Assembly (NCBI GenBank): GCA_017305715.1
Contig: JAFKKG010000017.1
Span: forward strand, 129,814 to 193,813
DNA: 64,000 nucleotides
Reading direction: 5' to 3'
Origin: Hyphomicrobiales bacterium
GTDB lineage: Bacteria; Pseudomonadota; Alphaproteobacteria; Rhizobiales; Xanthobacteraceae
Shown piece by piece: positions 46,586 through 62,277 of the stretch. The first letter of the stretch is position 1. Every line of letters begins with the position of its first letter. A program made the translations under genes and the position numbers. The notes under the pieces were generated by a model that worked only from the letters and a program-made list of their open reading frames with translations, was not told the DNA's origin and did not search any database.

Positions 46586-48654
46586 GGAGGAGTTCCGTCG
46601 GCTGTGGCTTGCTGTGTGATCGTGGGGCCGCCGGCTGCGATCCCCTTGGCTACCCTGGGCATAATAATGCGGAAAGTGGTGCCTTGTCCCAGCCTTGACT
46701 CCAGCATCATCCGGCCGCCAAGCTGTTGAGTGACAAGATTATAGACGATATGCAAGCCCAGTCCGGTGCCGCCCTCGTTGCGGCGCGTGGTAAAGAACGG
46801 GTCGAAGGCCTGCCGCTGGACGTCGGGCGTCATTCCGGCCCCGTCGTCGGCAAAAATGATCTCGACATCGTCACTGCCGCGGGCCCGGGCCGAAAGCGAA
46901 ATCGTGCCGGAACGGCCGTCGGCGAAGGCATGATTGGCGGCGTTGAGGAAAAGATTGGTTAAGATCTGGCCGTAGGAGCCGGGATAGCCGTCGATCAGGA
47001 GGCCGTCGGGAACGTCGACCGACAGCGTGATCGCCGCCTTCTTCAGCACCGGCCGCAAGCTCGCGACGATCTGGTCGGTGGCCTCGCCGAGGCTGAATTG
47101 CCGGCGCTCGGCATGCGAGCGGTCGACGGCGACCTGCTTGAACGACTGGATCAGTTCGCCGGCGCGATGCAGATTGCCCACCAATTGGCTTGCAGCGTCG
47201 CGCGAACTCTTGACGAACTCGTCGAGCTTGGAGCGGCGCAGCGGCTCGGTGCGCAGCTCGGACTCGAATATCTCGGCGCGGCGCGCGAAGCTCGATGCCA
47301 CCGTCAGGCTGATGCCGATCGGGTTGTTGACCTCGTGGGCGACGCCGGCAACGAGGCCCCCCAGCGCCGCCAGGCGCTCGGCATCGATCAGGTTCTGCTG
47401 GGCGGTATTGAGTTCGAGCAGCGCGCTCTCGGCCTTTTCCTTGGACGCGCGCAGTTCGTCCTCGGTCTTGCGCTTGGCGATGGCGTTTTCGCGGAACACT
47501 TCCACCGCGCGCGCCATCGCGCCGACCTCGTCCTTGGCCGACGTGCCCTGCACGCTGCGATCGTAATTGCCGGAGGTGATCGCGTGCATCGCCGCCAGGA
47601 TCTGTTGCAGCGGCAGGCGGATCGACAGCGCGATGAGCACGCCGGCGGACAGGATGATGCCGAGGAAGATCACGGCGATCGACAACACCCGGCGCGAGAT
47701 GCCCGCCAGCGTCCGGTCGAAGGTTTCCTGCGCTTTTTGCTCGCGCTGGCGCATCTTCACCGACAGGCCGTCGATCACGCCGATCGCATCGGCCTGGCTG
47801 GCGTCGATGGTGTTGCGCAGCAATTCGGTCCGGATCGCGAGTTGCTCGGTCAGTTTCGCCATTCCCTCGCGCAAGGCCAGCGTTTTGGCATGCAGCCGCG
47901 TCAGCGCCATGCGCTGCAAATCATTGTCCGCGAGGTCGGACATCACGGGGATGGTCTTTTCGATCGTCTCGGTGTTGCGGCGGGCGTCTTCGGCGGAGGC
48001 TGACGCCAGCGAGAGATAATAGGAGTTGGCGGCGACCAGCATCCCGGTGAACGCCTCGCGCGATTTTCCGAGCGACGGCCAGATCAGCGCATCGCGATGC
48101 CCGGTGGCGCCTTCGATGATGGAATAGAGGCCGGCCATGTCCTTGGCCGGTCCCAGCACCTGCTGCTCGTAGGTTTTCGCGATCGTCGCCTGGACCGCGC
48201 GCAGCTCACCGAAACCGTTGAGGAAGCGGTCGGTGACCTGCTCGAGCTGTTCGACCGACCCCGAAAGCATCGGGTCGTTGGCGGCGCGGTTGGTCAGGGT
48301 GCCGAGCACCGCTTCGCGCAGCAGCAGGATCTCCGCGAACAGCTCCGGGCTCGGCTGGTTGATGTAGCGATGGATCAGGTTCTGCAGCCGGCTGGTTTCG
48401 CTTTCCAGCAGCGCCAGGATCTTGTCGGAATCCCTGACATGGCGGACATCTTCCCAGGCCGAACCGAGCACCTTGGCGCCGTTCCAGATCAGCGCGGCCA
48501 GCACCACGACGACGGCGGAGTTCAGCGCTGCGATCGACAGGATGCGCCAGCGGATCGGAACCGCACGCAGCACCTGGACGATGCGAAAGCGGCCGCGCAC
48601 GGCGAGACTCGCCGGCCGTTCCACTGATCCTTCCTGTTGCGGGGTTTCGGCCAA
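46555..48654 (-). CDS. Membrane sensor histidine kinase, 699 aa
   Basis: An N-terminal helix (RILSIAALNSAVVVVLAALIW) and a second near residue 330 (LSIAVIFLGIILSAGVLIALS) enclose a large periplasmic four-helix region with many Glu/Leu heptads. A HAMP follows (RLPLQQILAAMHAITSGNYD), then a coiled coil, the H-box LGGLVAGVAHEVNNPIGISL and an ATP domain with NLFLNAANHAFADG, ADDGAGMTPD and GGTGLGLHIVYNLV. DctB/TorS-like architecture. The only sequence between it and the upstream promoter is a DctP-like remnant, hinting that its periplasmic domain once worked with a binding protein. Confidence 0.9.
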   Translation of the reverse strand: MAETPQQEGSVERPASLAVRGRFRIVQVLRAVPIRWRILSIAALNSAVVVVLAALIWNGAKVLGSAWEDVRHVRDSDKILALLESETSRLQNLIHRYINQPSPELFAEILLLREAVLGTLTNRAANDPMLSGSVEQLEQVTDRFLNGFGELRAVQATIAKTYEQQVLGPAKDMAGLYSIIEGATGHRDALIWPSLGKSREAFTGMLVAANSYYLSLASASAEDARRNTETIEKTIPVMSDLADNDLQRMALTRLHAKTLALREGMAKLTEQLAIRTELLRNTIDASQADAIGVIDGLSVKMRQREQKAQETFDRTLAGISRRVLSIAVIFLGIILSAGVLIALSIRLPLQQILAAMHAITSGNYDRSVQGTSAKDEVGAMARAVEVFRENAIAKRKTEDELRASKEKAESALLELNTAQQNLIDAERLAALGGLVAGVAHEVNNPIGISLTVASSFARRAEIFESELRTEPLRRSKLDEFVKSSRDAASQLVGNLHRAGELIQSFKQVAVDRSHAERRQFSLGEATDQIVASLRPVLKKAAITLSVDVPDGLLIDGYPGSYGQILTNLFLNAANHAFADGRSGTISLSARARGSDDVEIIFADDGAGMTPDVQRQAFDPFFTTRRNEGGTGLGLHIVYNLVTQQLGGRMMLESRLGQGTTFRIIMPRVAKGIAAGGPTITQQATADGTPPWPNRTMSST

Positions 48655-48655
48655 G

Positions 48656-48871
48656 TCACTGCACCCTGCGAATTCGTTCGATCAATGGCGCGATCGCCGG
48701 ATCCTCACCGGGCTGGCGCGATTGGTGGCGGCCGGCGGTGCGCTCCGCAACCATGTCGTGTGGCGCCTGTGCGGTGGGATGGCCCTGGGCCTCGGTGTCG
48801 GCGGCACGAAATTCGCGCGCCAAGGCGCCCGTCGAGGCCGCTGTCAGGAACAACGCCAGAACAAGCTTCAT
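48656..48871 (-). pseudogene. Truncated TRAP-type DctP-like binding protein, 71 aa
   Basis: Signal peptide MKLVLALFLTAASTGALA is followed by REFRAADTEAQGHPTAQA, then MVAERTAGRHQSRQPGEDPA and the end LIERIRRVQ. Family DctP proteins begin alike (EFR-AD...YPTVQAL..., ER-GGRH...SRQLGEE...) but are about 320 residues. Here the frame ends one base before the kinase start, so over three quarters is missing. Likely a decayed or shortened binding protein. Whether a small secreted peptide is still made is open. Confidence 0.55.
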
Positions 48872-49147
48872 GGTCCGCGAAAGGTCGGCGCGGCAAGACA
48901 CAGGCAACAATTCCCCTTGTGAAGAAGTCTGTGGCGGGACGAAAAGGTTCAATGCTTTCTTGTAACAGGAGGCGTTCGTTTTTAGCAGAAGGTACTTGGG
49001 CTTGGCTATCCGGAGCACGTTGCAATCATTAATTGTGCGCTGCGACGGCAGTAGTGGATTGAAACCGCGGGCGCGGGCCTCTATGACGGCGCAGCGCGCC
49101 GATTTGATCGCGCTCTCGACAAGCGGTTTTGGCAAAGTGATTCATCA

Positions 49148-50470
49148 GTGAAGTCGGCCTGGAGGCTTTTTCGATACATCGCGCTTGCGGTCATTGCGCT
49201 GGTGTCTCCGGCGCAGGCGACCACCGAGATCATGTGGTGGCACGCGATGTCGGGTGAACTCGGCAAGCAGCTCGAGAGGCTCGCGGCCGACTTCAACGCC
49301 TCGCAATCCGATTACCGGATCGTTCCGACCTACAAGGGCAACTACACCGAAACGGTCACGGCGGCGATCTTCGCCTTCCGTTCGCGCAGCCAGCCCGCCA
49401 TCGTTCAGGTCAACGAGATCGCGACCGCCACGATGATGGCGGCGAAGGGGGCGATCTATCCGGTGTTCGAACTGATGCGCGACCAGTCGGAGCCGTTCTC
49501 GCCGTCCGCGTATCTGCCGGCCGTCGCCGGATATTACTCCGATGTGGCCGGCAACATGCTGTCGTTCCCGTTCAATACCTCGACGCCGATCCTCTACTAC
49601 AACAAGGACATGTTCCGCGCGGCCGGCCTCGATCCGGAAGTGGCGCCGAAAACCTGGCCCGAGGTCGGGGCCGCGGCGAAGCGGTTGCGCGCATCGGGCG
49701 CGGCCTGCGGCCTGACCACCTCCTGGCCGTCCTGGATCAATGTCGAGAACTTCTCGGCATTCCATAATCTGCCGCTGACCACCAAGGCCAACGGGTTCGG
49801 CGGTCTTGATGCCGAACTGACCTTCAACAACCCGATCGTGGTGCGCCACATTACGCAGCTTGCGGAATGGCAGGCCACGAAAGTGTATGATTATAGCGGC
49901 CGCGGCCAGTCGGCCGAGCCGCGATTCCAGAAAGGCGAGTGCGGCATCTTCATCGGCTCATCGGCGACGCGCGCCGACATCAAGGCCAACTCGAAGTTCG
50001 AAGTCGGCTACGGCATGATGCCGTATTATCCCGACGTAGCGGGCGCGCCGCAAAACAGCATCATCGGCGGCGCGACCCTGTGGGTGCTGCGCGACCGGCC
50101 GCGCCCCGAATATACCGGCGTCGCCAAGTTCTTCGCGTATCTGTCGAAGCCGGAAGTCCAGGCGGCCTGGCACCAGAACACCGGCTATCTGCCGATCACC
50201 CGCGCCGCCTTCGACCTCACGCGGGCGCAGGGGTTCTACGACCGCAATCCCGGGGCGGCGATCTCGATCGAACAGATGACCCTGAATCCGCCGACCGAGC
50301 ACTCCAGGGGAATCCGGCTTGGCTCCTTTGTCCTGATCCGCGACGCGATCGATGAAGAACTGGAGCAGGTCTTCAGCGGCAAGCGCACCGCACAGGCAGC
50401 CCTCGACCTCGCCGCCGAGCGCGGCAACCGCCTGCTGCGCCAGTTCGAACGGGCGAATCCGGACCGGTAG
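49148..50470 (+). CDS. UgpB-like ABC substrate-binding protein (orphan), 440 aa
   Basis: Signal peptide (FRYIALAVIALVSPAQATT) then EIMWWHAMSGELGKQLERLAADFN, VQVNEIATATMMAAKGAIYP, PFNTSTPILYYNKDMFRAAGLDP, PSWINVENFSAFHNLP and GECGIFIGSSATRADI, matching the glycerol-3-phosphate (UgpB) and sugar binding family. Start is a GTG. Permease and ATPase genes of the system are absent on both sides. It stands divergent from the kinase block and may serve a distant transporter or act as a sensory input; the latter is inference. Confidence 0.85.
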   Translation: MKSAWRLFRYIALAVIALVSPAQATTEIMWWHAMSGELGKQLERLAADFNASQSDYRIVPTYKGNYTETVTAAIFAFRSRSQPAIVQVNEIATATMMAAKGAIYPVFELMRDQSEPFSPSAYLPAVAGYYSDVAGNMLSFPFNTSTPILYYNKDMFRAAGLDPEVAPKTWPEVGAAAKRLRASGAACGLTTSWPSWINVENFSAFHNLPLTTKANGFGGLDAELTFNNPIVVRHITQLAEWQATKVYDYSGRGQSAEPRFQKGECGIFIGSSATRADIKANSKFEVGYGMMPYYPDVAGAPQNSIIGGATLWVLRDRPRPEYTGVAKFFAYLSKPEVQAAWHQNTGYLPITRAAFDLTRAQGFYDRNPGAAISIEQMTLNPPTEHSRGIRLGSFVLIRDAIDEELEQVFSGKRTAQAALDLAAERGNRLLRQFERANPDR

Positions 50471-50476
50471 GCCTTT

Positions 50477-50567
50477 CCGTCATTGCGAGCGTAGCGAAGC
50501 AATCCATTGCGCGGCATAATGGAAGGATGGATTGCTTCGTCGCTATCGCTCCTCGCAGCAATGACGG
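50477..50567. repeat. Palindromic repeat (tcattgcgagcg family), copy 3
   Basis: CCGTCATTGCGAGCGTAGCG and, after a central AATCCATTGCGCGGCATAATGG, the inverse GGATTGCTTCGTCGCTATCG ending TGACGG. It begins 7 bases past the ugpB-like stop and ends 7 bases before the next gene, supplying the sequence in front of that ATG. Confidence 0.85.
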
Positions 50568-50573
50568 CTGGGG

Positions 50574-51524
50574 ATGACACTGTCTCTGCCAACGCTGTCC
50601 GATTTCGAAGCCTTTCAGGCCTGGCGCGCCGATCAGTCCCGGTGGCTACCGGTCGCGCTCGACATCGCCCACAGCCATGGTTTGAAAACCGCCGCGCCGC
50701 ATGTTTTTGCGACCGGTACCAACCTCGTCGCGGGTCTCGGCGATGAGTTGATCCTGAAAATCTTTCCGCCGATCCTTCGTCAGCAATTCGTCTCCGAGCG
50801 TGCGTCGCTGACGCAATTGCAGGGCCGGTTGAGCATCCCAATCCCCATAATCCTGTGCGAAGGCGAACGCGACGGCTGGCCGTATCTCGTCATCACGCGG
50901 CTACACGGCACCGTCGGTTCCGAAATATGGCCGGCGCTGCCGGAAGACCAGAAGGAGCGCGTGCTCGGGCAGATCGGCGCGACCATTGCGGAAGTGCAGC
51001 GCGCGCCGCCCGGCCAGCTCGCAAATATCGAGCCGGGATGGCCGCGATTCATATCGAAACAAATCGAAGGCTGTCGCGCGCGGCACACGCGCCTCGGCCT
51101 GCCGCCAAAATTTCTCGACGGGTTCGACGACCTGCTGCGCGATGCCCGCGCGCTCATTCCCTTGGATCAACCGGTCATCCTGGTCGGCGAATACATTCCG
51201 GAAAATTTTCTGCTTAGCCGGGGCGGCAATGGCTGGCACGTCGCCGGACTGTTCGACTTCGGTGACGTGATGACGGGGTTTGGCGAATACGACCTGCTCG
51301 GTCCGAGCGCCTTCATGACGGCCGGGATGCGGCGGAGGGTCCGCAGCCTGCTCGAGGGTTTTGGGTATTCGGACGCCGAGATCAATCCGGCGATGAAGCG
51401 GCGGCTGATGGCGCTGCTGCTGCTGCATCGGGTCAGCGATCCGATCCGGCATATCCAGATCGAGGGCTGGCAGGAAAGGGCCGGCGATCTCGTCGAATTG
51501 CAGGAACTGCTCTGGCCGACCTGA
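50574..51524 (+). CDS. Aminoglycoside phosphotransferase (APH)-fold protein, 316 aa
   Basis: Kinase-like fold: ATGTNLVAGLGDELILKIFP (nucleotide loop and Lys), YLVITRLHGT (hinge), VGEYIPENFLL and LFDFGDVMTGFGEYD (metal site). The usual catalytic HGD is read here as VGE, so the Brenner Asp is replaced by Glu. This occurs in some APH subfamilies, so activity on a small molecule is still possible. Start ATG is 7 bases after a repeat copy and has no good ribosome site, so the true start could be elsewhere. No resistance role can be inferred. Confidence 0.75.
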   Translation: MTLSLPTLSDFEAFQAWRADQSRWLPVALDIAHSHGLKTAAPHVFATGTNLVAGLGDELILKIFPPILRQQFVSERASLTQLQGRLSIPIPIILCEGERDGWPYLVITRLHGTVGSEIWPALPEDQKERVLGQIGATIAEVQRAPPGQLANIEPGWPRFISKQIEGCRARHTRLGLPPKFLDGFDDLLRDARALIPLDQPVILVGEYIPENFLLSRGGNGWHVAGLFDFGDVMTGFGEYDLLGPSAFMTAGMRRRVRSLLEGFGYSDAEINPAMKRRLMALLLLHRVSDPIRHIQIEGWQERAGDLVELQELLWPT

Positions 51525-51699
51525 TAGGTGCGACGAAATCGCACAGCAAACAGGCGTTCGATATATCTGCATATTTTATGAGCAAGTATGTATCTTTGTA
51601 TGCAACATTGGTTCCTTTGTTCAAACAGCCTGTCACCAAAAATCGATATCGAGTAGCATTTTCAATCCATTAGCCGAATCGCAGGGTTTCGTTAAGATT

Positions 51700-51714
51700 T
51701 GGCACGAACCTTGC
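51700..51714 (+). promoter_or_regulatory. Sigma-54 (-24/-12) promoter of transporter-amidase operon
   Basis: TGGCACG-AACC-TTGC: the GG of the -24 box (51701-51702) and the GC of the -12 box (51713-51714) are separated by exactly 10 bases, as required for RpoN. It is 44 bases before the binding-protein start, in a 230-base AT-rich leader (51525-51757) that also holds the palindrome TTGTATGCAA at 51596-51605, where an activator or the GntR regulator could bind. Confidence 0.85.
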
Positions 51715-51757
51715 GATTCCCAGCTCCAGCCGTTCCCCTCGGGCGTTGGAGCATCCC

Positions 51758-53377
51758 ATGAAGCGTCGCGATTTCCTGAAATCCGTCACCGGCGTTGCCG
51801 CGGGCGCGCTGGTGCCGGCGCCGGCCATTTTCTCCGCCGCCAAGGCCGATGCGCGGTCGGAGACGCTGCTGATCGTCTCGGAGGGCGGCCCCAACAACCT
51901 CGACATCCACGGCGTCGGCACCAACGTGCCCGGCTATGAAGTGTCGTGGAATTGCTACGACCGTCTGATCACCCATGAGATGAAGAGCGGTCCCGGCGGC
52001 GTGCCGTATTACGACCGCGACAAGTTCAAGGGTGAACTCGCCGACGACATGAAGATCGACGACATGTCGGTGACCTTCAAGCTGAAGAAGAACGCGAAAT
52101 TCCACGACGGCACGCCGGTGACGTCAAAGGATGTCAAATGGTCGCTCGATCGCGCGGTCTCGGTCGGCGGCTTCCCGACCTTCCAGATGAGCGCGGGCTC
52201 GCTGACCAAGCCCGAGCAGTTCGTGATCGTCGACGATTCCACGCTGCGCGTCGACTTTGCCAGGAAAGACCGCCTGACGATCCCCGATCTCGCCGTCATC
52301 GTGCCCTGCGTCGTCAACTCCGAACTGGTGAAGAAGAACGCCTCCGAAAAGGATCCCTGGGGTCTCGAATACACAAAACAGCAGACCGCAGGCTCCGGAG
52401 CCTACAAACTGACAAAGTGGACCGCCGGCACCGAAGTGATCATGGAGCGCAACGACGAATGGGTCGGCGGTCCCCTGCCGAAGATCAAGCGCGTGATCTG
52501 GCGCATGGTGCCGCAGGCCGGCAACCGCCGCGCGCTGCTCGAGCGCGGCGACGCCGACATCTCCTATGAGTTGCCGTTCAAGGATTTCCAGGAGCTGAAA
52601 TCGGCCGGCAAGCTCAACATCGTGTCGCTGCCGTTCAGTAACGGCATCCAGTATATTGGAATGAACGTCACCAAGCCGCCGTTCGACAATCCGAAGGTGC
52701 GCGAGGCGATGGCCTACGCGATGCCGTACCAGAAGATCATGGACGTGGTGCTGTTCGGCCTCGCCAATCCGATGTTCGGCGCAGCCGCCGACAAGGCGAC
52801 CGAAGTGGCATGGCCGCAGCCGACCAAATACGTCACCGACATGGCCAAGGCCAAGGCGCTGCTCACCGAGGCCGGTTATGCCAACGGCTTCGAGACCACG
52901 ATTTCGTTCGACCTCAATTTCGCCGGGGTCAATGAGCCGCTCTGCGTGCTGGTGCAGGAGAGCCTTGCCCAGCTCGGCATCAAGACCACGATCAACAAGA
53001 TTCCCGGCGCCAACTGGCGCACCGAGCTGAACAAGAAGGAAATGCCGCTCTACACCAACGTATTCTCGGGTTGGCTCGATTACCCCGAATACTTCTTCTA
53101 CTGGTGCTATCACGGCAACAATTCCGTCTTCAACACCATGAGCTACAAGTCGCCGGAGATGGACAAACTGATCGACGGCGCGCGCAACGCCGCCTCGATC
53201 GGCGACAAGGCGACCTACGACAGCGATGTAAAGGGTTTCGTCGATCTCGCCTTCAAGGACATCCCGCGCATTCCGCTGTATCAGCCCTTCGTCAACGTCG
53301 CGATGCAGAAGAACATCTCGGGCTATCAATACTGGTTCCACCGCCGCCTCGACTATCGCGCGCTGGTGAAGGCGTAA
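51758..53377 (+). CDS. Dipeptide/oligopeptide-type ABC transporter substrate-binding protein, 539 aa
   Basis: Periplasmic family-5 binding protein. A Tat signal MKRRDFLKSVTGVAAGALVP; mature part with EGGPNNLDIHGVGTNVPGYEV, YDRLITHEMKSGPGG, FHDGTPVTSKDVKWSLDRA and YWFHRRLDYRALVKA. GGAG is 6 bases before the ATG. It is the first gene of an operon with two permeases, a fused ATPase and enzymes of carboxylated urea breakdown, so the ligand is probably that nitrogen compound rather than a peptide. The RpoN promoter at 51700 drives it. Confidence 0.9.
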   Translation: MKRRDFLKSVTGVAAGALVPAPAIFSAAKADARSETLLIVSEGGPNNLDIHGVGTNVPGYEVSWNCYDRLITHEMKSGPGGVPYYDRDKFKGELADDMKIDDMSVTFKLKKNAKFHDGTPVTSKDVKWSLDRAVSVGGFPTFQMSAGSLTKPEQFVIVDDSTLRVDFARKDRLTIPDLAVIVPCVVNSELVKKNASEKDPWGLEYTKQQTAGSGAYKLTKWTAGTEVIMERNDEWVGGPLPKIKRVIWRMVPQAGNRRALLERGDADISYELPFKDFQELKSAGKLNIVSLPFSNGIQYIGMNVTKPPFDNPKVREAMAYAMPYQKIMDVVLFGLANPMFGAAADKATEVAWPQPTKYVTDMAKAKALLTEAGYANGFETTISFDLNFAGVNEPLCVLVQESLAQLGIKTTINKIPGANWRTELNKKEMPLYTNVFSGWLDYPEYFFYWCYHGNNSVFNTMSYKSPEMDKLIDGARNAASIGDKATYDSDVKGFVDLAFKDIPRIPLYQPFVNVAMQKNISGYQYWFHRRLDYRALVKA

Positions 53378-53443
53378 CGTCGTGATGGTCGCGCGCGAGA
53401 CCTCTGCGTTTGTGGTGAGTGAGGGAGGCGCGATCCTCTCATT

Positions 53444-53544
53444 CCCTCCCCCCTTGCGGGGGAGGGGCAGGGAGAGGGGTAACCACGGGTACCGCTTTCT
53501 CAGCTTACCCCTCTCCCCAACCCTCCCCCGCAAGGGGGGAGGGA
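53444..53544. repeat. Palindromic repeat (ccctcccccttgcggggg family)
   Basis: CCCTCCCCCCTTGCGGGGGA, then GGGCAGGGAGAGGGG, inverted as CCCCTCTCCCCAACCCTCCC and GCAAGGGGGGAGGG. It sits in the 219-base spacer between the binding-protein and first permease genes of the same operon. A strong stem here may attenuate transcription, so that the binding protein exceeds the membrane parts. Confidence 0.85.
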
Positions 53545-53596
53545 GCGCACCGGGTCGTATTGCGAGGTCGGGGATACAATTGGCGCGGAGCATCCC

Positions 53597-54610
53597 ATGC
53601 TGACCATGATCGGCAAGCGGTTGATGTTTGCGATCCCGTCGCTGATCGGGGTCGTGATCGTGACGTTCCTGCTGACGCGCGCGTTGCCCGGCGATCCGGC
53701 CGCGTATTTCGCCGGGCCCGCGGCGACCAAGGAGGCGGTCGAGCAGATCCGCAAGAAGCTGGGTCTCGACAAGCCGCTGATCGAACAGTTCGTCCGCTAC
53801 ACCAACGATCTCGCCCATGGCGATTTCGGCAATTCGCTGACGACGGGCCAGCCCGTCGCCGCCGAAATCCGCAACCGGCTGCCGGCGTCCGCCGAATTGA
53901 CCTTGCTCGGCCTGTTCGTATCCATCGTGATCGCCATCCCGCTCGGCGTGCTCGCCGCCACGAGGCCGGGATCGTGGATCGATCACCTCTGCCGGGTGAC
54001 GACGACGGCCGGTGTGTCGCTGCCGGTGTTCTTCACGGGGCTGGTGCTGGTCTATGTGTTCTATTTCCGGCTCGGCTGGTCGCCGGCGCCGCTCGGCCGG
54101 CTCGACGTGTTCTACAGCGCGCCGAACACGGTGACCGGCTTCTATCTGATCGACACCTTGATCGCGCGCGATTTCGAGACGTTTCGTTCGGCATTGAGCC
54201 AGCTCATTTTGCCGGCGACGACGCTGGCGATCTTCTCGTTGGCGCCGATCGCACGCATGACGCGGGCCTCGATGCTGGCGGTGCTGGCGTCGGACTTCGT
54301 GCGCACCGCGCGCGCCAGCGGCCTGTCGCCGGGCACCGTCATCGTCACCTATGCGTTCCGCAATGCGATGCTGCCGGTCATCACCACGCTCAGCATGGTG
54401 TTCTCGTTCCTGCTCGGGGCCAACGTGCTGGTGGAGAAAGTCTTCGCCTGGCCCGGCATCGGCTCCTATGCGGTGGAAGCTCTGATCTCGTCGGACTTCG
54501 CGCCGGTGCAGGGCTTTGTGCTGACCATGGCGGTCATGTACGTGCTGCTCAATCTAATAATCGACATTCTCTATGGCGTGATCGATCCGCGCGTGAGGCT
54601 GGAGGGGTAA
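53597..54610 (+). CDS. ABC transporter permease (DppB-like), 337 aa
   Basis: Six-helix permease: MLTMIGKRLMFAIPSLIGVV, LPGDPAAYFAGPAATKE, the conserved FGNSLTTGQPVAAEIRNRLP and the coupling loop TARASGLSPGTVIVTYAFRN before the last helices. It belongs to the OppB/DppB family. Four bases later comes the second permease. Confidence 0.92.
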   Translation: MLTMIGKRLMFAIPSLIGVVIVTFLLTRALPGDPAAYFAGPAATKEAVEQIRKKLGLDKPLIEQFVRYTNDLAHGDFGNSLTTGQPVAAEIRNRLPASAELTLLGLFVSIVIAIPLGVLAATRPGSWIDHLCRVTTTAGVSLPVFFTGLVLVYVFYFRLGWSPAPLGRLDVFYSAPNTVTGFYLIDTLIARDFETFRSALSQLILPATTLAIFSLAPIARMTRASMLAVLASDFVRTARASGLSPGTVIVTYAFRNAMLPVITTLSMVFSFLLGANVLVEKVFAWPGIGSYAVEALISSDFAPVQGFVLTMAVMYVLLNLIIDILYGVIDPRVRLEG

Positions 54611-54612
54611 GC

Positions 54613-55515
54613 ATGAGCACCGTTGCGCCTGCCGCCGTTGAACCTGCCGGTCCCGCACGAACCTCGGGACTGGCGGCGATCTTCGAACACACCCGCTATG
54701 TGCTCGGCGAGAATCGCGTCACCGCCTTTGCCTTTGGGCTATTGGTCGTGATCCTGTTCGCCGCGATCTTCGGGCCGTATGTCGTGCCCTATGATCCCCT
54801 GGCGAGCGACACCACCGTGGCATTGAAGGCGCCGTCTGCGGCGCACTGGTTCGGCACCGATCAATTGGGCCGCGACATCTTCAGCCGCGTCATTGTCGCG
54901 ACCAGGCTGGATACGTTCATTGCGGTGGCTTCCGTGGCACTGGTGTTCCTGATGGGCGGCCTTGCCGGCATCGCCGGCGGCTATTTCGGCGGCTGGACCG
55001 ACCGCATCGTCGGACGCATCGCCGACACCATCATGGCGTTTCCGCTGTTTGTGCTGGCGATGGGTATCGTCGCGGCACTTGGCAATACCGTGCAGAACAT
55101 CATCATCGCCACCGCGATCGTGAATTTTCCGCTCTATGCCCGCGTCGCCCGCGCCGAGGCCAATGTCCGCCGCAACGCCGGCTTCGTGCAGGCGGCGCGA
55201 CTGTCGGGTAATGGCGAGTTCCGGATTCTTTTGGTGCACATTTTGCCGAATATCATGCCGATCATGATCGTGCAGATGTCGCTGACCATGGGTTACGCCA
55301 TCCTCAACGCCGCCGGCCTTTCCTTCATCGGCCTTGGCGTGCGGCCGCCGACGGCGGAATGGGGCATCATGGTTGCGGAGGGCGCCGGTTTCATGGTGTC
55401 GGGCGAATGGTGGATCGCGCTGTTTCCGGGTCTCGCGCTGATGATCGCGGTGTTCTGCTTCAACCTGCTTGGCGACGGTCTGCGCGATATCGTCGACCCG
55501 CAGCGAAGAACCTGA
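54613..55515 (+). CDS. ABC transporter permease (DppC-like), 300 aa
   Basis: Five-helix partner with an N-terminal cytoplasmic segment (AFGLLVVILFAAIFGPYVVP), GTDQLGRDIFSRVIVATRLD and the coupling motif VQAARLSGNGEFRILLVHIL. GGAGGGG is well placed before the ATG. OppC/DppC family. Confidence 0.92.
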   Translation: MSTVAPAAVEPAGPARTSGLAAIFEHTRYVLGENRVTAFAFGLLVVILFAAIFGPYVVPYDPLASDTTVALKAPSAAHWFGTDQLGRDIFSRVIVATRLDTFIAVASVALVFLMGGLAGIAGGYFGGWTDRIVGRIADTIMAFPLFVLAMGIVAALGNTVQNIIIATAIVNFPLYARVARAEANVRRNAGFVQAARLSGNGEFRILLVHILPNIMPIMIVQMSLTMGYAILNAAGLSFIGLGVRPPTAEWGIMVAEGAGFMVSGEWWIALFPGLALMIAVFCFNLLGDGLRDIVDPQRRT

Positions 55516-55525
55516 GGATGAGCCG

Positions 55526-57304
55526 ATGACCGCGCAGCCATTGCTCGACGTCAACGACCTCACGGTGGAATTCGCCACGCGGCGCGGCATCGTCAAAGCC
55601 GTGCAGCACGTCAACATCTCCGTGGCCAAGGGCGAGACGCTCGGTATCGTCGGCGAGTCCGGTTCCGGCAAGTCGGTGACGTCATATGCGGTCATGCGGA
55701 TCCTCGATCGCGCCGGCAGGATCGCCGAGGGCTCGGTGATGTTTTCCGGCATCGACGTCAAGGCCGCGACCGAGAACCAGATGCGCGATCTGCGCGGCCG
55801 CGAAATCTCGATGATCTTCCAGAACCCGCGCGCGGCGCTCAATCCGATCAGAAAGGTCGGCGACCAGATCGAGGACGTGTTGCGCCAGCACGTGCAGCAG
55901 ACCCAGGTAGCCGATCGCGGCGAGAAGGCGATCGAGGCGCTGGAACAGGTCAAGATCGCCCGCCCGCGCGAGCGCTACCACGCCTATCCGTTCGAACTGT
56001 CCGGCGGCATGTGCCAGCGCGTGGTGATCGCGCTGGCGCTGGCCTGCAATCCGCAACTCCTGATCGCGGACGAGCCGACCACCGGGCTGGATGTGACGAC
56101 GCAGAAGGCCGTGATGGATTTGATCGTCGAGCTGACAAAGCGGCGCGGCATGTCGACCATCCTGATCACGCATGATCTGGGGTTGGCCGCCGCCTATTGC
56201 GATCGCGTGGTCGTGATGGAAAAGGGCAAGGTCGTGGAAACGGCGAAATCGGCCGACATCTTCGCTAGCCCCGAGCACGCCTATACCAAGAAGTTGATGC
56301 GCGCGACGCCCCGGCTCGGCGTCACCTTGCGCGATCTGCTGCCGGAAGAGGACGCCGCGGCGTTGCCACCTGTCATGGTTGGACCTGATCCGGCCATCCA
56401 TCATTCTTCGAAAGGTTCTTCTGAAGCGATGGACTCCCGGGTCAAGCCCGGGGGCGACGAGATTGGCAAGCCGCTTCTCGCGGTCGAAAGACTGGTCAAG
56501 GAATATCCGCGCCAGGGTGCCACCGCCGTTCTCGGCAAGCTGTTCTCGCGCAAGCCGCCGGTCGAGGCCGAAATTTTCCGCGCCGTCGATGGCATCAGCT
56601 TTACGGTCGGCCATGGCGAGAGCGTCGGCCTGGTCGGTGAATCCGGCTGCGGCAAATCGACCACGTCGATGATGGTGATGCGGCTATTGGACCAGACCTC
56701 GGGTCGCATCGTGTTCGACGGCGACGAGATCGGCACCATGCCGCCCAACGCGTTTGCGCGGCTGCCGCTGCGCAAGAGCATCCAGATGGTGTTCCAGGAT
56801 CCGACCGACAGCCTCAATCCGCGCTTCACGGCGGCCCGCGCCATCGTCGATCCGATCATGCAACTCGGTGATATCAGGGGACGCGACGCGCTGCGCGCCC
56901 GCTGCGAGGAACTCGCCGGGCTGGTCGGCCTGCCGGTCAATCTGCTCGATCGCTTTCCGCATCAATTGTCCGGCGGCCAGAAGGCCCGCGTCGGCATTGC
57001 GCGCGCGATTGCGCTGCACCCAAAACTCGTGATCCTCGACGAGCCGACCGCGGCGCTCGACGTTTCCGTGCAGGCGGTGGTGCTCAATCTCTTGCAGGAC
57101 CTCAAGTCGTCCTTGGGTATGAGCTATCTGTTCGTCTCCCATGATTTGAATGTGGTGCGCCTGCTGTGCGATCGTGTCATCGTGATGCGCGCGGGACGAA
57201 TCGTCGAACAGGGACTGTCCGAACGGGTCTTGGGCGATCCGCAGGATGCCTATACAAGGGAACTGCTGACGGCGATCCCGCATCCGCCGTTGCCGGTTCA
57301 CTAA
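55526..57304 (+). CDS. Fused double ABC ATPase (DppD-DppF in one chain), 592 aa
   Basis: Two nucleotide-binding domains in one protein. Domain 1: Walker A GESGSGKS at 43-50, signature LSGGMCQR near 158, Walker B LLIADEPTTGLD near 178. Domain 2: Walker A GESGCGKS at about 371, signature LSGGQKAR, Walker B LVILDEPTAALD. The linker at about 282-313 (VMVGPDPAIHHSSKGSSEAM) is the translation of a dispersed repeat, so the fusion or the linker is young. It powers import through the two permeases upstream. No stop separates the halves. Confidence 0.92.
   Translation: MTAQPLLDVNDLTVEFATRRGIVKAVQHVNISVAKGETLGIVGESGSGKSVTSYAVMRILDRAGRIAEGSVMFSGIDVKAATENQMRDLRGREISMIFQNPRAALNPIRKVGDQIEDVLRQHVQQTQVADRGEKAIEALEQVKIARPRERYHAYPFELSGGMCQRVVIALALACNPQLLIADEPTTGLDVTTQKAVMDLIVELTKRRGMSTILITHDLGLAAAYCDRVVVMEKGKVVETAKSADIFASPEHAYTKKLMRATPRLGVTLRDLLPEEDAAALPPVMVGPDPAIHHSSKGSSEAMDSRVKPGGDEIGKPLLAVERLVKEYPRQGATAVLGKLFSRKPPVEAEIFRAVDGISFTVGHGESVGLVGESGCGKSTTSMMVMRLLDQTSGRIVFDGDEIGTMPPNAFARLPLRKSIQMVFQDPTDSLNPRFTAARAIVDPIMQLGDIRGRDALRARCEELAGLVGLPVNLLDRFPHQLSGGQKARVGIARAIALHPKLVILDEPTAALDVSVQAVVLNLLQDLKSSLGMSYLFVSHDLNVVRLLCDRVIVMRAGRIVEQGLSERVLGDPQDAYTRELLTAIPHPPLPVH
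56371..56462. repeat. Coding copy of palindromic repeat inside the fused ATPase
   Basis: GTCATGGTTGGACCTGATCC, CGGCCATCCATC, then the inverse GATGGACTCCCGGGTCAAGC and CGGGGGCGACGA. The same family as 31594-31721 and 35708-35796. Here it is in frame within the linker of the double ATPase and gives the residues GPDPAIH and DSRVKPGGDE. Confidence 0.8.
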
Positions 57305-57305
57305 T

Positions 57306-57350
57306 GCATGATCCGGAAAAGTGGAGACCGGTTTTCCGAAGAGATCATGC
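57306..57350. repeat. Dispersed repeat (gcatgatcc...gatcatgc family), copy 2
   Basis: GCATGATCCGGAAAAGTGGA, then ACCGGTTTTCCGAAGAGATC with ATGC. Same family as 21946-21990. It lies just past the ATPase stop and before the AtzG-like gene. Confidence 0.8.
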
Positions 57351-57374
57351 TCAGAAGCGTTGATTGGGAGCGAA

Positions 57375-57554
57375 ATGACCGAACCTCTGGACGACTATAT
57401 CGATGCCGTCGCGAAAGCGCTGGCGCTGCCGGTGGAAGATTCCTGGCGGCCTGCGGTGCGCGCCAATCTCGAAGTTTCGTTGCGGCTCGCGCGGCTGGTC
57501 GACGAGTTTTCCTTGCCCGACGAAACCGAGCCCGCCAGTGTCTTCGCAGCCTGA
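57375..57554 (+). CDS. atzG: AtzG/HpxX-like small subunit (DUF4089), 59 aa
   Basis: MTEPLDDYIDAVAKALALPV then WRPAVRANLEVSLRLARLVDEF and ASVFAA. This two-helix fold resembles GatC and is the partner that stabilises AtzE-type amidases (AtzG in cyanuric-acid bacteria, HpxX in Klebsiella purine catabolism). GGGAG is 4 bases ahead of the ATG. It precedes the amidase gene by 7 bases. Confidence 0.85.
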   Translation: MTEPLDDYIDAVAKALALPVEDSWRPAVRANLEVSLRLARLVDEFSLPDETEPASVFAA

Positions 57555-57561
57555 CCGCGCC

Positions 57562-58938
57562 ATGACGGCTCAAGAAATCGCGCAGGCCGTGGCTGGCGGC
57601 AAGATGACCGCGCTCGCCGCGACCGAGGCGGCGCTGGCGCGGATCGCCAGGCATGATGCGGTGTTGAATTCCTTTACCGACGTCACCGCCGAACGCGCGC
57701 GTGCGAAAGCGCATGCCGTCGATGCCGCTGTCGCCGCCGGGCAAAAAGTCGGTCCGCTCGCCGGCGTGCCGTTCGCGGTGAAGAACCTGTTCGACGTCAA
57801 GGGCCTGCCGACGCGCGCGGGCTCAAAGATCAACCGCGACCTCGCGCCCTCGGCACGCGACGCTACGCTGGTCGAGCGCATGGAAGCGGCGGGCGCCGTG
57901 CTGGTCGGCGCCCTCAATATGGGCGAATACGCCTACGATTTTACGGGCGAGAATGTCCATGACGGCCCGTCGCGCAATCCGCATGATCCGACGCGGATGA
58001 CCGGCGGCTCCTCCGGCGGCTCGGGCAGCTCGGTCGGCGGGGGGCTGGTGCCGATCGCGCTGGGCTCGGACACCAATGGATCGATCCGGGTGCCGTCGTC
58101 GTTCTGCGGAATTTTTGGTCTGAAGCCGACCTATGGCCGGCTGTCGCGGGCGCGGTCGTTTCCGTTCGTCGCCAGTTTCGATCATCTCGGGCCGTTAGCA
58201 CGCAGCGTCGGCGACCTCGCGCTGGCTTATGATGCGATGCAGGGGCCTGATGCCGATGATGCCGCGTGCACGACGCGCCCGGTCGAGCCGGTGATGTCGC
58301 AGCTCACGCAGGGCATTGGCGGATTGCGGGTCGCGATTGCCGGGGGCTATTTCCAGAAGAACGTGTTTCCGGAAGCCGTCGAGGCCGTCGCACGCATCGC
58401 CAAGGCGCTCGGAGCCACAAAGACCATTGAAATCCCAGAGGCCGCGCGCGCCCGCGCCGCAGCTTACGTCATCTCGACCACCGAAGGCGCCTCGCTGCAT
58501 CTCGACCGTCTGCGCAAGCGCCCCCATGATTTCGATCCCGCGGTGCGTGACCGCCTGATCGCGGGCGCGATGGTGCCGGCGCCATTGGTCGACCGGGCGC
58601 AGAAATTCCGCCGCTGGTATCGCGCGCAGGTGCTCGAGCTGTTCAAATCGGTCGACGTGATCATTGCGCCGGCCACCCCCTGCATCGCGCCGAAGCTTGG
58701 CCAGGTGACGTTCAAGCTCGATGGCGTCGAACTGCCGGTGCGCGCCAATATCGGCATCCACACCCAGCCGATTTCCTTCATCGGGCTTCCGGTGGTTGCG
58801 GTGCCGGTGCCGCTGGAGCCGATGCCGATCGGCGTCCAGATCATCGCCGCACCCTGGCGCGAGGACATCGCGCTGCGTGTTGCCCACGCGCTGGAGCAGT
58901 CCGGCGCTGCCGCAGCGCCCGCGCCGAGAGGAATTTAG
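57562..58938 (+). CDS. atzE: AtzE-family amidase (1-carboxybiuret or oxalurate-type hydrolase), 458 aa
   Basis: Amidase signature enzyme with the Ser-cisSer-Lys triad: Lys in [13 protein letters not shown], the loop [15 protein letters not shown] and nucleophile Ser in [13 protein letters not shown]. AtzE acts on 1-carboxybiuret in s-triazine breakdown; the related HpxY acts in oxalurate/ureide catabolism. It is coupled to AtzG and an HpxZ-like gene, as in both systems. The natural substrate cannot be fixed from sequence. The start is the ATG 7 bases after the atzG stop. Confidence 0.88.
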
Positions 58939-58940
58939 CC

Positions 58941-59333
58941 ATGGAACTCGATCTTCCCGACGTGCTCGCCGAGGTCACCGCACAGTTCGCGCGCTATGAG
59001 AAGGCGCTGGTCTCGAACGACGTCGCGGTGCTCGATGAATTGTTCCGCAACGATCCCCGCACGCTGCGCTACGGGATCAATGAAAATCTCTACGGCTATC
59101 AAGCGATCATGGCGTTCCGCGCCGGACGCTCGCCGGTCGGGCTGATGCGCAGGACCGACAAGACGGTCATCACCACCTATGGCCGCGATACCGCGGTCGC
59201 CTCGACCTTGTTCTATCGCGATGTGTGGGGCGGCAAGAAGGTCGGGCGGCAGATGCAGACCTGGGTGCGTTTCCCCGAGGGGTGGAGAATCGTCGCCGCC
59301 CATGTCAGCATCATCGACGAACCGGCATCGTAG
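58941..59333 (+). CDS. hpxZ: HpxZ/AtzH-like protein (DUF3225), 130 aa
   Basis: NTF2-like fold: [99 protein letters not shown]3225 proteins regularly sit beside AtzE/HpxY amidases. The reaction is not established from the sequence; it may handle a carboxylated urea intermediate. Only 2 bases follow the amidase stop. Confidence 0.85.
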
Positions 59334-59366
59334 GGAACCTGGGTCAAAGGATTTGGATCAACCCGC

Positions 59367-60104
59367 ATGAGCCTTGACGATCTTCCGACGCGCAGCCCGC
59401 AACCGGGCTCGGGGTCAGATCCGGTGGTGCGGCGCGTCGATCGTGCCTCACCGCAGACGGACAAGATCACGCGCGCCGAGGAATTGCGGCTGCAACTCGC
59501 CGACGAGATCGTGCGCGGCGTGCTGGCGCCGGGATCGGGGCTGGATGAAACCGATATTGCGCGCCGCTTCAGCGTGTCGCGAACGCCGGTGCGCGAGGCG
59601 CTGCGCCAGCTGGTCGCCAGCGGTCTGGTGGAATCCCGCGCCCATCGCGGCGCGGTCGTGGCGCAGCCGTCGATCGAGCGGCTGACCGGCATGTTCGAGG
59701 CGATGGCCGAGCTGGAAGCGCTATGCGCCGGGCTCGCCGCGGAACGGATGCCGGCGGCCGAGCGCCAGAAGCTGGAAGGCATCCACGAGGAATTGCGGGT
59801 GTTGAGCTATGCCGGCAATCCCGAGCGGTTCCACGAGGTCAATGAGCGCTTTCACAACGCGATCTATGCCGGTTCGCAAAACGGCTATATCGCCGAGATG
59901 ACGCTGGCGACACGGGTGCGGGTGCAGCCGTTCCGGCGTGCGCAATTCCGCAATCTCGGGCGCCTTGCAAAATCCCACGCCGAACATGACCGCGTCGTGG
60001 TCGCCATCATGCGCGGCGACAAGGCCGGCGCCGCGGCCGCGATGCGCGCCCATATCGAACTGGTGCGTGACGAGTATGAGTTGTACGCGGTGACGCACCC
60101 CTAA
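59367..60104 (+). CDS. GntR/FCD family transcriptional regulator, 245 aa
   Basis: Winged helix (LQLADEIVRGVLAPGSGLDETDIARRFSVSRTPVREALRQL) with FCD effector domain (EVNERFHNAIYAGSQNGYIAEM, RSHAEHDRVVVAIMRGDKAGAAAAMRAHIEL, metal-type His). Probably responds to the imported nitrogen compound or its product and controls this operon and atzF. Candidate sites are TTGTATGCAA (51596-51605) and TTGTGTACAT (62031-62040). Confidence 0.88.
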   Translation: MSLDDLPTRSPQPGSGSDPVVRRVDRASPQTDKITRAEELRLQLADEIVRGVLAPGSGLDETDIARRFSVSRTPVREALRQLVASGLVESRAHRGAVVAQPSIERLTGMFEAMAELEALCAGLAAERMPAAERQKLEGIHEELRVLSYAGNPERFHEVNERFHNAIYAGSQNGYIAEMTLATRVRVQPFRRAQFRNLGRLAKSHAEHDRVVVAIMRGDKAGAAAAMRAHIELVRDEYELYAVTHP

Positions 60105-60147
60105 GCGATCGTCCCTTGCCTCCCCCGGCAAGCGGGGCGCGGCGACA

Positions 60148-61938
60148 TCAAACCTTCCGCGCCATGAATGCGCGCCAGCCGCCGAATACGGAAATATCCT
60201 GCGCGCCGTCGATTGCCGCGGGTTCGACCAAAAATCCCTTCACGCCGCGGCCGTCCGCCAGACGAATGGTGCCAATCGCCATCGGCGGCGGAATGGCCGC
60301 CACGAATTTTCCGAATGCGGTTGCCGACAACGCCCAGAGTTCGAGCTTGATCGCCACTCCTGCGCCGGGCTCGATTCGCAGCATGCCGGGTTTTGGCGGC
60401 GTGGTATCGAGCGCGTACAGCTTGTAGTCCGGCGCGGTGGTGGCTTCCTCCAGCAGGCGCCCGCCCAGATCAGTCAGTTCGCCGTTCAGCGCCATGCCGG
60501 AGAGATGCGCGCCGACCACGGCGATCGCGATTTCGTCTCCAGTCAACGCCGTTGACGGCGGCGCGAGCGGCGGCTGCGTCAGGCCTTTGCTGCCCATCTT
60601 CAGTTCGGTATCGGCGTGGAACACGCGGCCGATGCTGGCGAGTTGCGCGTCGTGTCCGGCCGGTGCGAGCAGCGTGATGCCGAACGGAATCCCGTCCGGC
60701 CGCATCGCGGACGGAAGCGCCAGCCCGCAGAGATCGAGCAGATTGACGAAATTGGTGTAGGTGCCGAGCCTGGAGTTGAGTTCGACCGGATTGGCCAGCA
60801 CCTGCGCGGTCGAATAGGCCGTTGGCGCGGTCGGCAGCACCAGCGCATCGATATTGCCGAAGGTGCGTTCGGCGACGCGCCGCAGCGCCTGCAAGCGATA
60901 GAGCGCGGCAAACGTATCCGCCGCGGTCAGCCGCGCGCCGGCGGCGGTGATCTCGCGCGTGACCGGATGGATCGAATCCGGCGACGATGCCAGCAAATCG
61001 CGGATCACCAGAAAACGTTCGGCGACCCACGGCCCCTCATAGAGCAGCCGCGCGGTCTCGTAAAACGGTTCGAGATCGAATTCGACCAGCGTCGCGCCAA
61101 GCGAGGTCCAGCGTTTCAACGCCTCGCCATAGGCTTTCTCTGACGCCTTGTCGCCGAAGAAGATGAGCTGGCCATCGCGGGGGATGCCGAGCCGCAATTG
61201 TCCGGGAAACACGGTCACCGCGCCGAGCGGCCGGTTGCGTGAAAACGGATCGGCGCCGTCGGGGCCGGCCATTGCCGCGAGCGCCGTCATGGCGTCGTCG
61301 ACCGTCAGCGAGAACACCGAGATGCAATCCAGCGTGCGGCAGGCCGGCACGAGGCCGGCATTGGAGATCAGCCCGAGGCTCGGCTTCAGCCCGACGATGT
61401 TGTTGAGCATCGCCGGCACGCGGCCACTGCCAGCGGTATCGGTGCCGAGCGCCAGCGGTACCAGGCCGGCTGACACCGCGACCGCCGATCCCGAACTCGA
61501 TCCGCCCGGAATGAGATCGCTGCGCATCGGATTGACGGGAATGCCGTAGGGCGAGCGCACCCCGACGAGGCCGGTGGCGAACTGGTCGAGATTGGTCTTG
61601 CCGATGATGATGGCGCCGGCGGCGCGCAGCTTGGCGACGGCGGTCGAATCATGCGCCGGCGAATAGGAGAAGGCCGGGCAGGCGGCCGTGGTCGGCAGGC
61701 CCAGCGCGTCGATATTGTCCTTTACCGCGACCGGCACGCCGAGCAGCGGCAGCGACGCGGCATCCTTTCCGCTCAGCGTATGCACTTCCGCCAACGCATC
61801 TTCTTCGTCGCGCAGGCTGATGAACACGGCAGGATCGTTGTGGTCGCGGATGCGCCGGTAGCTGCGCGCAATCGTCTCTGCCGGCGTCATGGTGCATGCG
61901 CGGTGCGCGGCGACGATCGCGGCAATGGTTTCAGTCAA
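60148..61938 (-). CDS. atzF: Allophanate hydrolase (AtzF-type), 596 aa
   Basis: Amidase domain (about 1-450): Lys in VAVKDNIDALGLPTTAACPA, GGSSSGSAVAVSAG and Ser in LGTDTAGSGRVPAM. The C-terminal AtzF_C-type domain (about 470-596, with FLVEPAAI and GGWRAFMARKV) is present, as in AtzF of Pseudomonas ADP. It turns allophanate or 1,3-dicarboxyurea into NH3 and CO2. It is read toward the GntR gene (44-base convergent gap) from its own RpoN promoter. The start is a TTG preceded by GAGGC, which is unusual; an ATG 48 bases later is an alternative. Confidence 0.88.
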   Translation of the reverse strand: MTETIAAIVAAHRACTMTPAETIARSYRRIRDHNDPAVFISLRDEEDALAEVHTLSGKDAASLPLLGVPVAVKDNIDALGLPTTAACPAFSYSPAHDSTAVAKLRAAGAIIIGKTNLDQFATGLVGVRSPYGIPVNPMRSDLIPGGSSSGSAVAVSAGLVPLALGTDTAGSGRVPAMLNNIVGLKPSLGLISNAGLVPACRTLDCISVFSLTVDDAMTALAAMAGPDGADPFSRNRPLGAVTVFPGQLRLGIPRDGQLIFFGDKASEKAYGEALKRWTSLGATLVEFDLEPFYETARLLYEGPWVAERFLVIRDLLASSPDSIHPVTREITAAGARLTAADTFAALYRLQALRRVAERTFGNIDALVLPTAPTAYSTAQVLANPVELNSRLGTYTNFVNLLDLCGLALPSAMRPDGIPFGITLLAPAGHDAQLASIGRVFHADTELKMGSKGLTQPPLAPPSTALTGDEIAIAVVGAHLSGMALNGELTDLGGRLLEEATTAPDYKLYALDTTPPKPGMLRIEPGAGVAIKLELWALSATAFGKFVAAIPPPMAIGTIRLADGRGVKGFLVEPAAIDGAQDISVFGGWRAFMARKV

Positions 61939-62015
61939 TTGATGCCTCGTCCCAAGGGTTGGCCGGCTGCGTCACGATCGACGTCGCGCCAGCGAGTTGG
62001 TCCATCCGGATTGAA

Positions 62016-62030
62016 GCAAGCGATGTGCCA
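62016..62030 (-). promoter_or_regulatory. Sigma-54 (-24/-12) promoter of atzF
   Basis: Reading the minus strand: TGGCAC-ATCGC-TTGC, with GG (62028-62029) and GC (62016-62017) exactly 10 bases apart, as for RpoN. It is about 80 bases upstream of the atzF start. TTGTGTACAT at 62031-62040 abuts the -24 box and could be a GntR operator. The divergent 339-base gap 61939-62277 also holds an AT-rich core around 62040-62110 but no gene. Confidence 0.82.
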
Positions 62031-62277
62031 TTGTGTACATTATCGATGCAGGCCGTAACATCCAAATAGTGTCGCAATTTCATGTATTTAGTTGAGCTGA
62101 TGCAAAATGCCGAAGGCGCCATATCCAAGCCGGCGACAGCGCGCCTGCCTAATCATTGGGCAGGACCACCTCCGATATGGCGAGCGCCTCCGGGCACGCG
62201 ATGAGACATTGCCCGGCCGCGCCGTTCTCGCGTAGAGCAAATCGCCAGCCCCCACAGAGGGGTGTGCGAGGAAACCG

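Follow-up and report, generated by a model that had tools for sequence, protein, structure and literature searches.

Introduction

The enzyme set AtzG, AtzE, AtzH (HpxZ), and AtzF is found in the atzDGEHF cyanuric acid operon of Pseudomonas sp. ADP (pADP-1), and homologous AtzG-, AtzE-, and AtzH-like proteins belong to the HpxWXYZ oxalurate operon of Klebsiella, which is nitrogen-responsive in K. oxytoca (PMC8381380). A 2018 paper described clusters of the same enzymes (AtzGEH) together with ATP-binding cassette (ABC) transporters and allophanate hydrolase and suggested a nitrogen role for them; it left open the function of the widespread atzG-atzE-atzH clusters outside cyanuric acid operons (PMC6219798). 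A further related system is the triuret pathway of Herbaspirillum, which runs via TrtA, TrtB, BiuH, and AtzF (PMC7948467). The formation of carboxybiuret by TrtA (PMC7948467) and the action of AtzEG on carboxybiuret (PMC6219798) were published separately, and the triuret paper remarks that AtzEG takes the TrtA product. Here we analyze a 64,000-nucleotide stretch of DNA from a Hyphomicrobiales bacterium (contig JAFKKG010000017.1, positions 129,814 to 193,813; hereafter the window), which carries an importer-atzG-atzE-hpxZ-gntR operon and a convergent atzF gene. On balance, we think it probable that this cluster is an RpoN-switched nitrogen-scavenging unit for triuret-type urea polymers and a sink for 1-carboxybiuret.

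The window cluster departs from each described system. Its AtzE is about 54% identical to that of pADP-1; unlike the pADP-1 operon, the window operon includes the importer and a GntR gene, with atzF convergent to it, the promoters are of the RpoN type, AtzE is near-universal in the genus, and TrtA, rather than AtzD, is the likely source of carboxybiuret. The window genome shares a TrtA homologue, BiuH, and AtzF with Herbaspirillum, whereas its AtzGE-HpxZ enzymes could deaminate carboxybiuret directly, without prior decarboxylation to biuret. In contrast to the Klebsiella system, whose examined 9 kb (with an incomplete gene table) contain no annotated AtzF, the window AtzE belongs to a separate clade (judged from two HpxY rows). 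Oxidized uric acid is the presumed origin of triuret, which is also found as an impurity in urea fertilizer (PMC7948467). The idea that AtzEG arose with s-triazine herbicides is cited in PMC12625717; the abstract of that paper groups trtA, biuH, and atzH as triuret and biuret genes of nitrifiers (its body has atzF in that place), and in its available text atzE appears only in the phylogeny and the discussion. Among the papers listed in our searches, which covered mostly open-access literature, we saw none proposing AtzGEH for triuret in rhizobia.

Linkage of the Cluster to Triuret Hydrolase

A search of the rest of the genome for further pathway genes, as proposed in the initial annotation of this DNA, found a TrtA homologue and BiuH, and no match to PF09663, the cyanuric acid hydrolase (AtzD) family; cyanuric acid was therefore rejected as a local source of carboxybiuret. 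The TrtA homologue (contig C1) matches Herbaspirillum TrtA (6xix) with 279.6 bits, compared to 223.5 bits or less for BiuH chains; it has a TrtA-type active-site loop, and an Asp-Lys-Cys triad (D24, K129, and C162; numbering offset of 3 inferred) is aligned. Its gene has a sigma-54 site of its own, and among 21 Bradyrhizobium trtA upstreams (20 picked by us from the genomes listed, plus the window genome) the site is perfect in 17 and has at most one mismatch in all 21. The gene for the BiuH of the window genome (419 bits, cut-off 370) follows a BMP-type importer gene that has a sigma-54 site, and an allantoate amidohydrolase gene is nearby. This region (L125:2089-9668), which comprises the sigma-54 site, the BMP-type ABC importer, BiuH, a deaminase-like open reading frame, and the divergent allantoate amidohydrolase, looks purine-linked.

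We surveyed 297 genomes of the order (122 genera; E-values up to 1e-85 for TrtA, 1e-130 for AtzE, and 1e-85 for BiuH, with AtzD taken as a family match to PF09663; the cut-offs are our choice and the co-occurrence sets were compiled by hand). TrtA was found in 38 of them, AtzE in 75, the AtzD family in 53, and BiuH in 65. AtzE is present in 37 of the 38 TrtA genomes, against 75 of 297 overall; the sole TrtA genome without AtzE (G283) has BiuH. AtzE also occurs in 45 of the 53 AtzD genomes and in 45 of the 65 BiuH genomes. This co-occurrence, like the linkage described next, is a direct observation.

Outside the genus, 28 genomes have both TrtA and AtzE, and the two genes lie within 10 kb of each other in 15 of these and within 500 bp in 11 (20 stretches from 18 genomes were fetched, including all 15 linked genomes; within Bradyrhizobium, linkage was read by eye among the matches listed, G020 and G173). 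The most complete arrangement is L142, from another family, where trtA and the whole window cluster are found at one locus in the order sigma-54 site (one mismatch), trtA, membrane protein, sigma-54 site (perfect), importer, atzG, atzE, hpxZ, and gntR, followed by a convergent atzF. Two Bradyrhizobium genomes (L126 and L127) have an RpoN-type site followed by trtA, the membrane protein gene, and atzF, and this row of genes converges on the atzGE operon. We also built a tree from 30 AtzE proteins plus one outgroup, in which the window AtzE falls in a clade of 24 rows (support 97/99) together with all 17 TrtA-linked rows, while the two HpxY rows (Klebsiella and Serratia) and pADP-1 AtzE fall outside. 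The initial annotation had proposed that a urea-derived compound is imported and hydrolyzed to ammonia; the co-occurrence with TrtA, L142, and the AtzE tree support the breakdown, and narrow its substrate to 1-carboxybiuret derived from triuret.

The membrane protein adjoining trtA is found in several genera (L126:7949-9601 and L077:14454-16106; also L139-L142, L145, L147, and L153). It is about 551 amino acids long with about 12 hydrophobic segments, and is a candidate triuret permease; in Terrarubrum it is annotated as a "regulator". It has no match in Pfam, NCBIfam, or the Protein Data Bank (PDB), and its single-sequence fold is poor (predicted local distance difference test score of 40.8), so we claim no fold or family for it; an assignment as a purine permease by resemblance was dropped on the same grounds.

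In some genera (L129, L131, and L134), AtzD, BiuH, TrtA, and AtzE with HpxZ are encoded in one cluster, which joins the breakdown of cyanuric acid, biuret, and triuret there. AtzGE-HpxZ-AtzF in other genera is best explained as also a sink for carboxybiuret from cyanuric acid.

Conserved Sigma-54 Promoters

Perfect matches to TGGCACN5TTGC occur at only two sites in the window, one upstream of the binding-protein gene of the importer and one upstream of atzF, exactly where the initial annotation had placed RpoN-type sites and with GG and GC 10 bases apart (Table 1). The whole genome (7.45 Mb) contains 29 perfect matches, compared to 16 for a reversed control pattern, which is only moderate evidence for promoters; since the enrichment within one genome is mild, we tested conservation across relatives, which decides the matter. 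The related loci are those of the 80 best relatives of the window AtzE (nearly all from Bradyrhizobium, with a few from Tardiphaga and Afipia), giving 61 readable importer upstreams and 72 atzF upstreams; the window is excluded from the counts unless stated. Of the 61 importer upstreams, 57 have a perfect site and four a site with one mismatch; of the 72 atzF upstreams, 69 have a perfect site, two have one with a single mismatch, and one (L077) has none. Spacings of 2, 3, 4, 6, 7, and 8 bases gave no matches in these upstreams, and the control upstreams of permB (65), hpxZ (80), and the APH gene (44) gave none at any spacing tested; chance matches were rejected as an explanation on this conservation. 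In L077, which is from the same genome as L127, atzF lies in an apparent operon behind trtA, and a sigma-54 site is found upstream of trtA.

The exact importer site is among the RpoN targets listed in a 2026 study of Bradyrhizobium sp. DOA9, in which atzE, dppB, dppD, and dppF are also reported to be down in rpoN mutants in microaerobic nitrogen-free medium (PMC13207237). The importer 15-mer occurs once in the DOA9 genome, at the corresponding locus; the atzE and dpp names in that study likely refer to this locus. An isochorismatase with TGGCACGGCGCTTGC at -37 is listed in the same table; in DOA9, TGGCACGGCGCTTGC is located 36 bp above the aligned start of trtA, and the identical 15-mer also heads another row of the table. 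The main text of PMC13207237 does not give the atzF site, nor does the word allophanate occur in its available text. RpoN control of both transcripts, as initially annotated, is strongly supported by the conservation of the sites, and for the importer operon also by the DOA9 data; this part is partly already published, and the new part is the likely substrate route.

Candidate Activator and Operator Sites

A dyad of 17 bp, TGCYYA-N5-TRRGCA, precedes the -24 box of both window promoters by about 132 bp. With shuffled upstreams as the control, at least 10 of the 12 dyad consensus positions are matched in 58 of 61 importer upstreams (2.4% of shuffles) and in 70 of 71 atzF upstreams (shuffled 2-3% overall). 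TGC-N11-GCA is found in 53 of 72 atzF upstreams, and other spacers from 5 to 17 reach at most 11. We then built a matrix from the 17-mer closest to the consensus in every upstream, with the window genome excluded, and scored 29 sites with it, namely both window promoters plus the 27 remaining perfect sites in that genome. The two window promoters are followed by urtA (17.1), two NMT1/ABC promoters (15.0 and 14.4), and the BMP-BiuH promoter (13.9), and the flagellar, dctA, glnII, and trtA promoters score low; the labels of six other scored promoters were checked by family search, glnII is under its NCBIfam cut-off, and the remaining labels are our reading of the translations. The genome encodes five strong sigma-54 activators, one of which is NtrC, over its cut-off. 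From the dyad scores and the presence of the NtrC gene, NtrC is probably the activator of both promoters.

Classical NtrC boxes (GCAC-N5-9-GTGC) were found in none of 62 importer upstreams and in four of 72 atzF upstreams. The five PII loci of the genome have no perfect sigma-54 site, and the single site with one mismatch is about 1.3 kb from its gene. The three other exact matches to the dyad pattern in the genome look like chance, with no sigma-54 site of fewer than two mismatches within 400 bp.

Two further conserved elements, TTGTATGCAA upstream of the importer and TGTACACAA upstream of atzF, are likely operators of the GntR protein. Sites resembling that of integration host factor (by its consensus, from which the importer promoter of the window deviates) between the dyad and the promoter are only suggestive.

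Proposed Pathway and Alternative Substrates

We infer the following scheme from the genes and sites above. When nitrogen is limiting, an enhancer-binding protein, for which NtrC is the likeliest candidate, would bind the dyad about 132 bp upstream and fire RpoN-RNA polymerase at both promoters, which the GntR protein probably blocks until its ligand is present. TrtA, encoded elsewhere with its own RpoN-type site, would convert triuret to 1-carboxybiuret; AtzG-AtzE would deaminate this to 1,3-dicarboxyurea, HpxZ/AtzH would convert the latter to allophanate, and AtzF would release ammonia and CO2. AtzF, being on its own promoter, could serve BiuH too. The importer would presumably bring in a compound of the urea type.

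Several observations weigh against this scheme. The trtA gene of the window genome is on another contig than the cluster, and trtA lies within the fetched flanks in only one of the 80 related loci. The promoters of this trtA (-2.4) and of glnII (3.6), a classical NtrC target, are without the dyad, and the atzF of L142 has no upstream sigma-54 site with at most one mismatch. AtzD co-occurs with AtzE (45 of 53) about as strongly as TrtA does, which argues that triuret is not the sole carboxybiuret source in the order, and nine of the 75 AtzE-positive genomes have none of TrtA, AtzD, and BiuH at our cut-offs. Kinship among the genomes makes the Fisher values for co-occurrence overstate independence, so these statistics are inflated. 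An AtzE from Acidithiobacillus, encoded beside a gamma-glutamyltransferase and a ring-opening amidohydrolase and with no TrtA annotated in the stretch examined, groups in the same clade as the window AtzE. Finally, BiuH provides the window genome with a second route.

That AtzGE-HpxZ is instead an oxalurate amidohydrolase of the HpxXYZ kind, acting on purine ureides while AtzF serves another route, seems unlikely to us. The Klebsiella and Serratia HpxXYZ proteins are homologous to the window proteins, yet both HpxY rows (the only two in the tree) are outside the clade of the window AtzE. The NCBIfam name of the third protein, "oxalurate catabolism protein HpxZ", is also given to AtzH of pADP-1 (L148:4880-5269), from a cyanuric acid operon, and the name is thus not indicative of oxalurate use. 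The genes scanned between 43894 and 61938 include no gamma-glutamyltransferase, an enzyme that accompanies HpxXYZ in Serratia but also the Acidithiobacillus AtzE of the window's clade. AtzF, which the cluster has, is not required for oxalurate breakdown. In favor of this alternative, HpxWXYZ of K. oxytoca is upregulated in nitrogen starvation, and an involvement of NtrC and sigma-54 is suspected in the original paper (data not shown; PMC8381380).

The main flow might instead be through biuret, with triuret or carboxybiuret decaying to biuret, BiuH forming allophanate, AtzF finishing the pathway, and AtzGE unrelated; the position of BiuH behind an importer gene that carries a sigma-54 site fits this, as does the half-life of carboxybiuret of about 20 min in vitro (PMC7948467). 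We nevertheless give it a low probability, since 16 of the 38 TrtA genomes are without BiuH and AtzE is kept in all 16, and trtA is at most 500 bp from atzE in 11 of the 28 genomes outside the genus. Given the separate BiuH of the genome, 1-carboxybiuret is also a likelier direct substrate of AtzGE than biuret. Alternatively, the Dpp-type importer and the enzymes might handle some other carboxylated urea or amide that has yet to be described. The ligands of family-5 binding proteins are diverse, and the binding protein of the window has only moderate matches to solved chains (the best 140.7 bits); the nine AtzE-positive genomes without any carboxybiuret-related partner tested agree with such a substrate. 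The repeated linkage to TrtA, which in L142 includes the same importer, speaks against it, and we consider this improbable, the least probable of the three.

If triuret is the source, the TrtA linkage offers a specific natural answer for the role of atzG-atzE-atzH clusters outside cyanuric acid operons. Bradyrhizobium would then be able to draw nitrogen from a compound that should form where urate and oxidants come together, e.g., in nodules, and an enzyme set of herbicide degradation would gain a natural ancestor. A more far-reaching proposal, which we put forward tentatively and consider slightly less likely than not as a whole, is that AtzG-AtzE-AtzH serves naturally to channel the 1-carboxybiuret that triuret hydrolase makes from oxidized uric acid, that nearly all Bradyrhizobium have this as a nitrogen route under RpoN/NtrC control in soil or nodules, and that the unnamed 12-helix family linked to TrtA is a triuret permease.

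Distribution and Gene Content

The combination of a Dpp-type importer with AtzGE-HpxZ under sigma-54 control had been called unusual in the initial annotation, which is not borne out: an AtzE match with E < 1e-120 was found in 191 of 195 genomes of the genus, the complete unit (importer, atzE, hpxZ, gntR, and convergent atzF) is present in 59 of the 80 fetched loci (contig ends truncate many of the others), and ABC transporters in AtzGEH clusters were already known in 2018 (PMC6219798). The cluster is frequent in soil and root-nodule Bradyrhizobium. L077 (L127), L040, and L078 keep atzE, hpxZ, gntR, and atzF, with no Dpp importer within the fetched stretch; in L127 a sigma-54 site is found directly before atzG.

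The genes named initially (a family 5 solute-binding protein, two permeases, a fused ATPase, AtzG, AtzE, HpxZ, GntR/FCD, and the convergent AtzF) were all recovered by family searches (Table 1), with corrected starts for the binding protein (most likely the ATG at 51758), AtzG (57375-57554), AtzE (from 57562), and AtzF (probably the TTG at 61938). The binding protein begins with a sequence that we take to be like a twin-arginine translocation signal. AtzE exceeds its model cut-off and has an AtzG partner, by which the pair is a predicted AtzEG 1-carboxybiuret hydrolase. Y19 and R43 of HpxZ align with the catalytic Tyr22 and the helper Arg46 of AtzH (numbering of PMC6219798, offset of 3 assumed), and the amidase and C-terminal AH_C domains of AtzF are both over their cut-offs.

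Table 1. Positions in the window of the genes, promoters, and candidate regulatory sites of the cluster.
Feature	Position	Strand	Basis
Likely activator site (UAS, upstream activating sequence) TGCATATTTTATGAGCA	51568..51584	+	132 bp above -24 T; fourth base deviates from dyad consensus
Likely GntR operator TTGTATGCAA	51596..51605	+	In 55/62 upstreams (window counted), 94-108 bp above -24 T
Sigma-54 -24/-12 promoter TGGCACGAACCTTGC	51700..51714	+	Conserved upstream of importer; listed RpoN site in DOA9
Family-5 ABC solute-binding protein	51758..53377	+	PF00496 265.7 bits; start MKRRDFLK
DppB-type permease	53597..54610	+	PF00528, PF19300
DppC-type permease	54613..55515	+	PF00528, PF12911; start inferred
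Fused two-domain ABC ATPase	55526..57304	+	PF00005 in two stretches; start inferred
AtzG, 59 aa	57375..57554	+	PF13318 AtzG-like 63.9 bits, cut-off 24
AtzE amidohydrolase	57562..58938	+	TIGR02715 745 bits, cut-off 426; structure 6c62 502 bits
HpxZ/AtzH	58941..59333	+	PF11533, NF033625; AtzH structure 6bjt
GntR/FCD regulator	59367..60104	+	PF00392, PF07729
AtzF allophanate hydrolase with C-terminal domain	60148..61938	-	TIGR02713 802 bits, cut-off 511; PF21986; structure 4gyr
Sigma-54 -24/-12 promoter TGGCACATCGCTTGC	62016..62030	-	Conserved upstream of atzF
Likely GntR operator ATGTACACAA	62031..62040	-	Abuts -24 box; TGTACACAA in 68/72 upstreams (window counted, L077 excluded)
Likely activator site TGCCCAATGATTAGGCA	62146..62162	-	132 bp above -24 T; spacer test and position weight matrix

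Between the ATPase gene and atzG (57306-57350) there is a palindromic element resembling repetitive extragenic palindromes, and its core pattern has no other copy in the window. Upstream of the cluster (44840-51524) are two histidine-kinase-type genes, a family-1/8 solute-binding protein, and an APH-fold kinase; the APH neighbor is conserved in many relatives.

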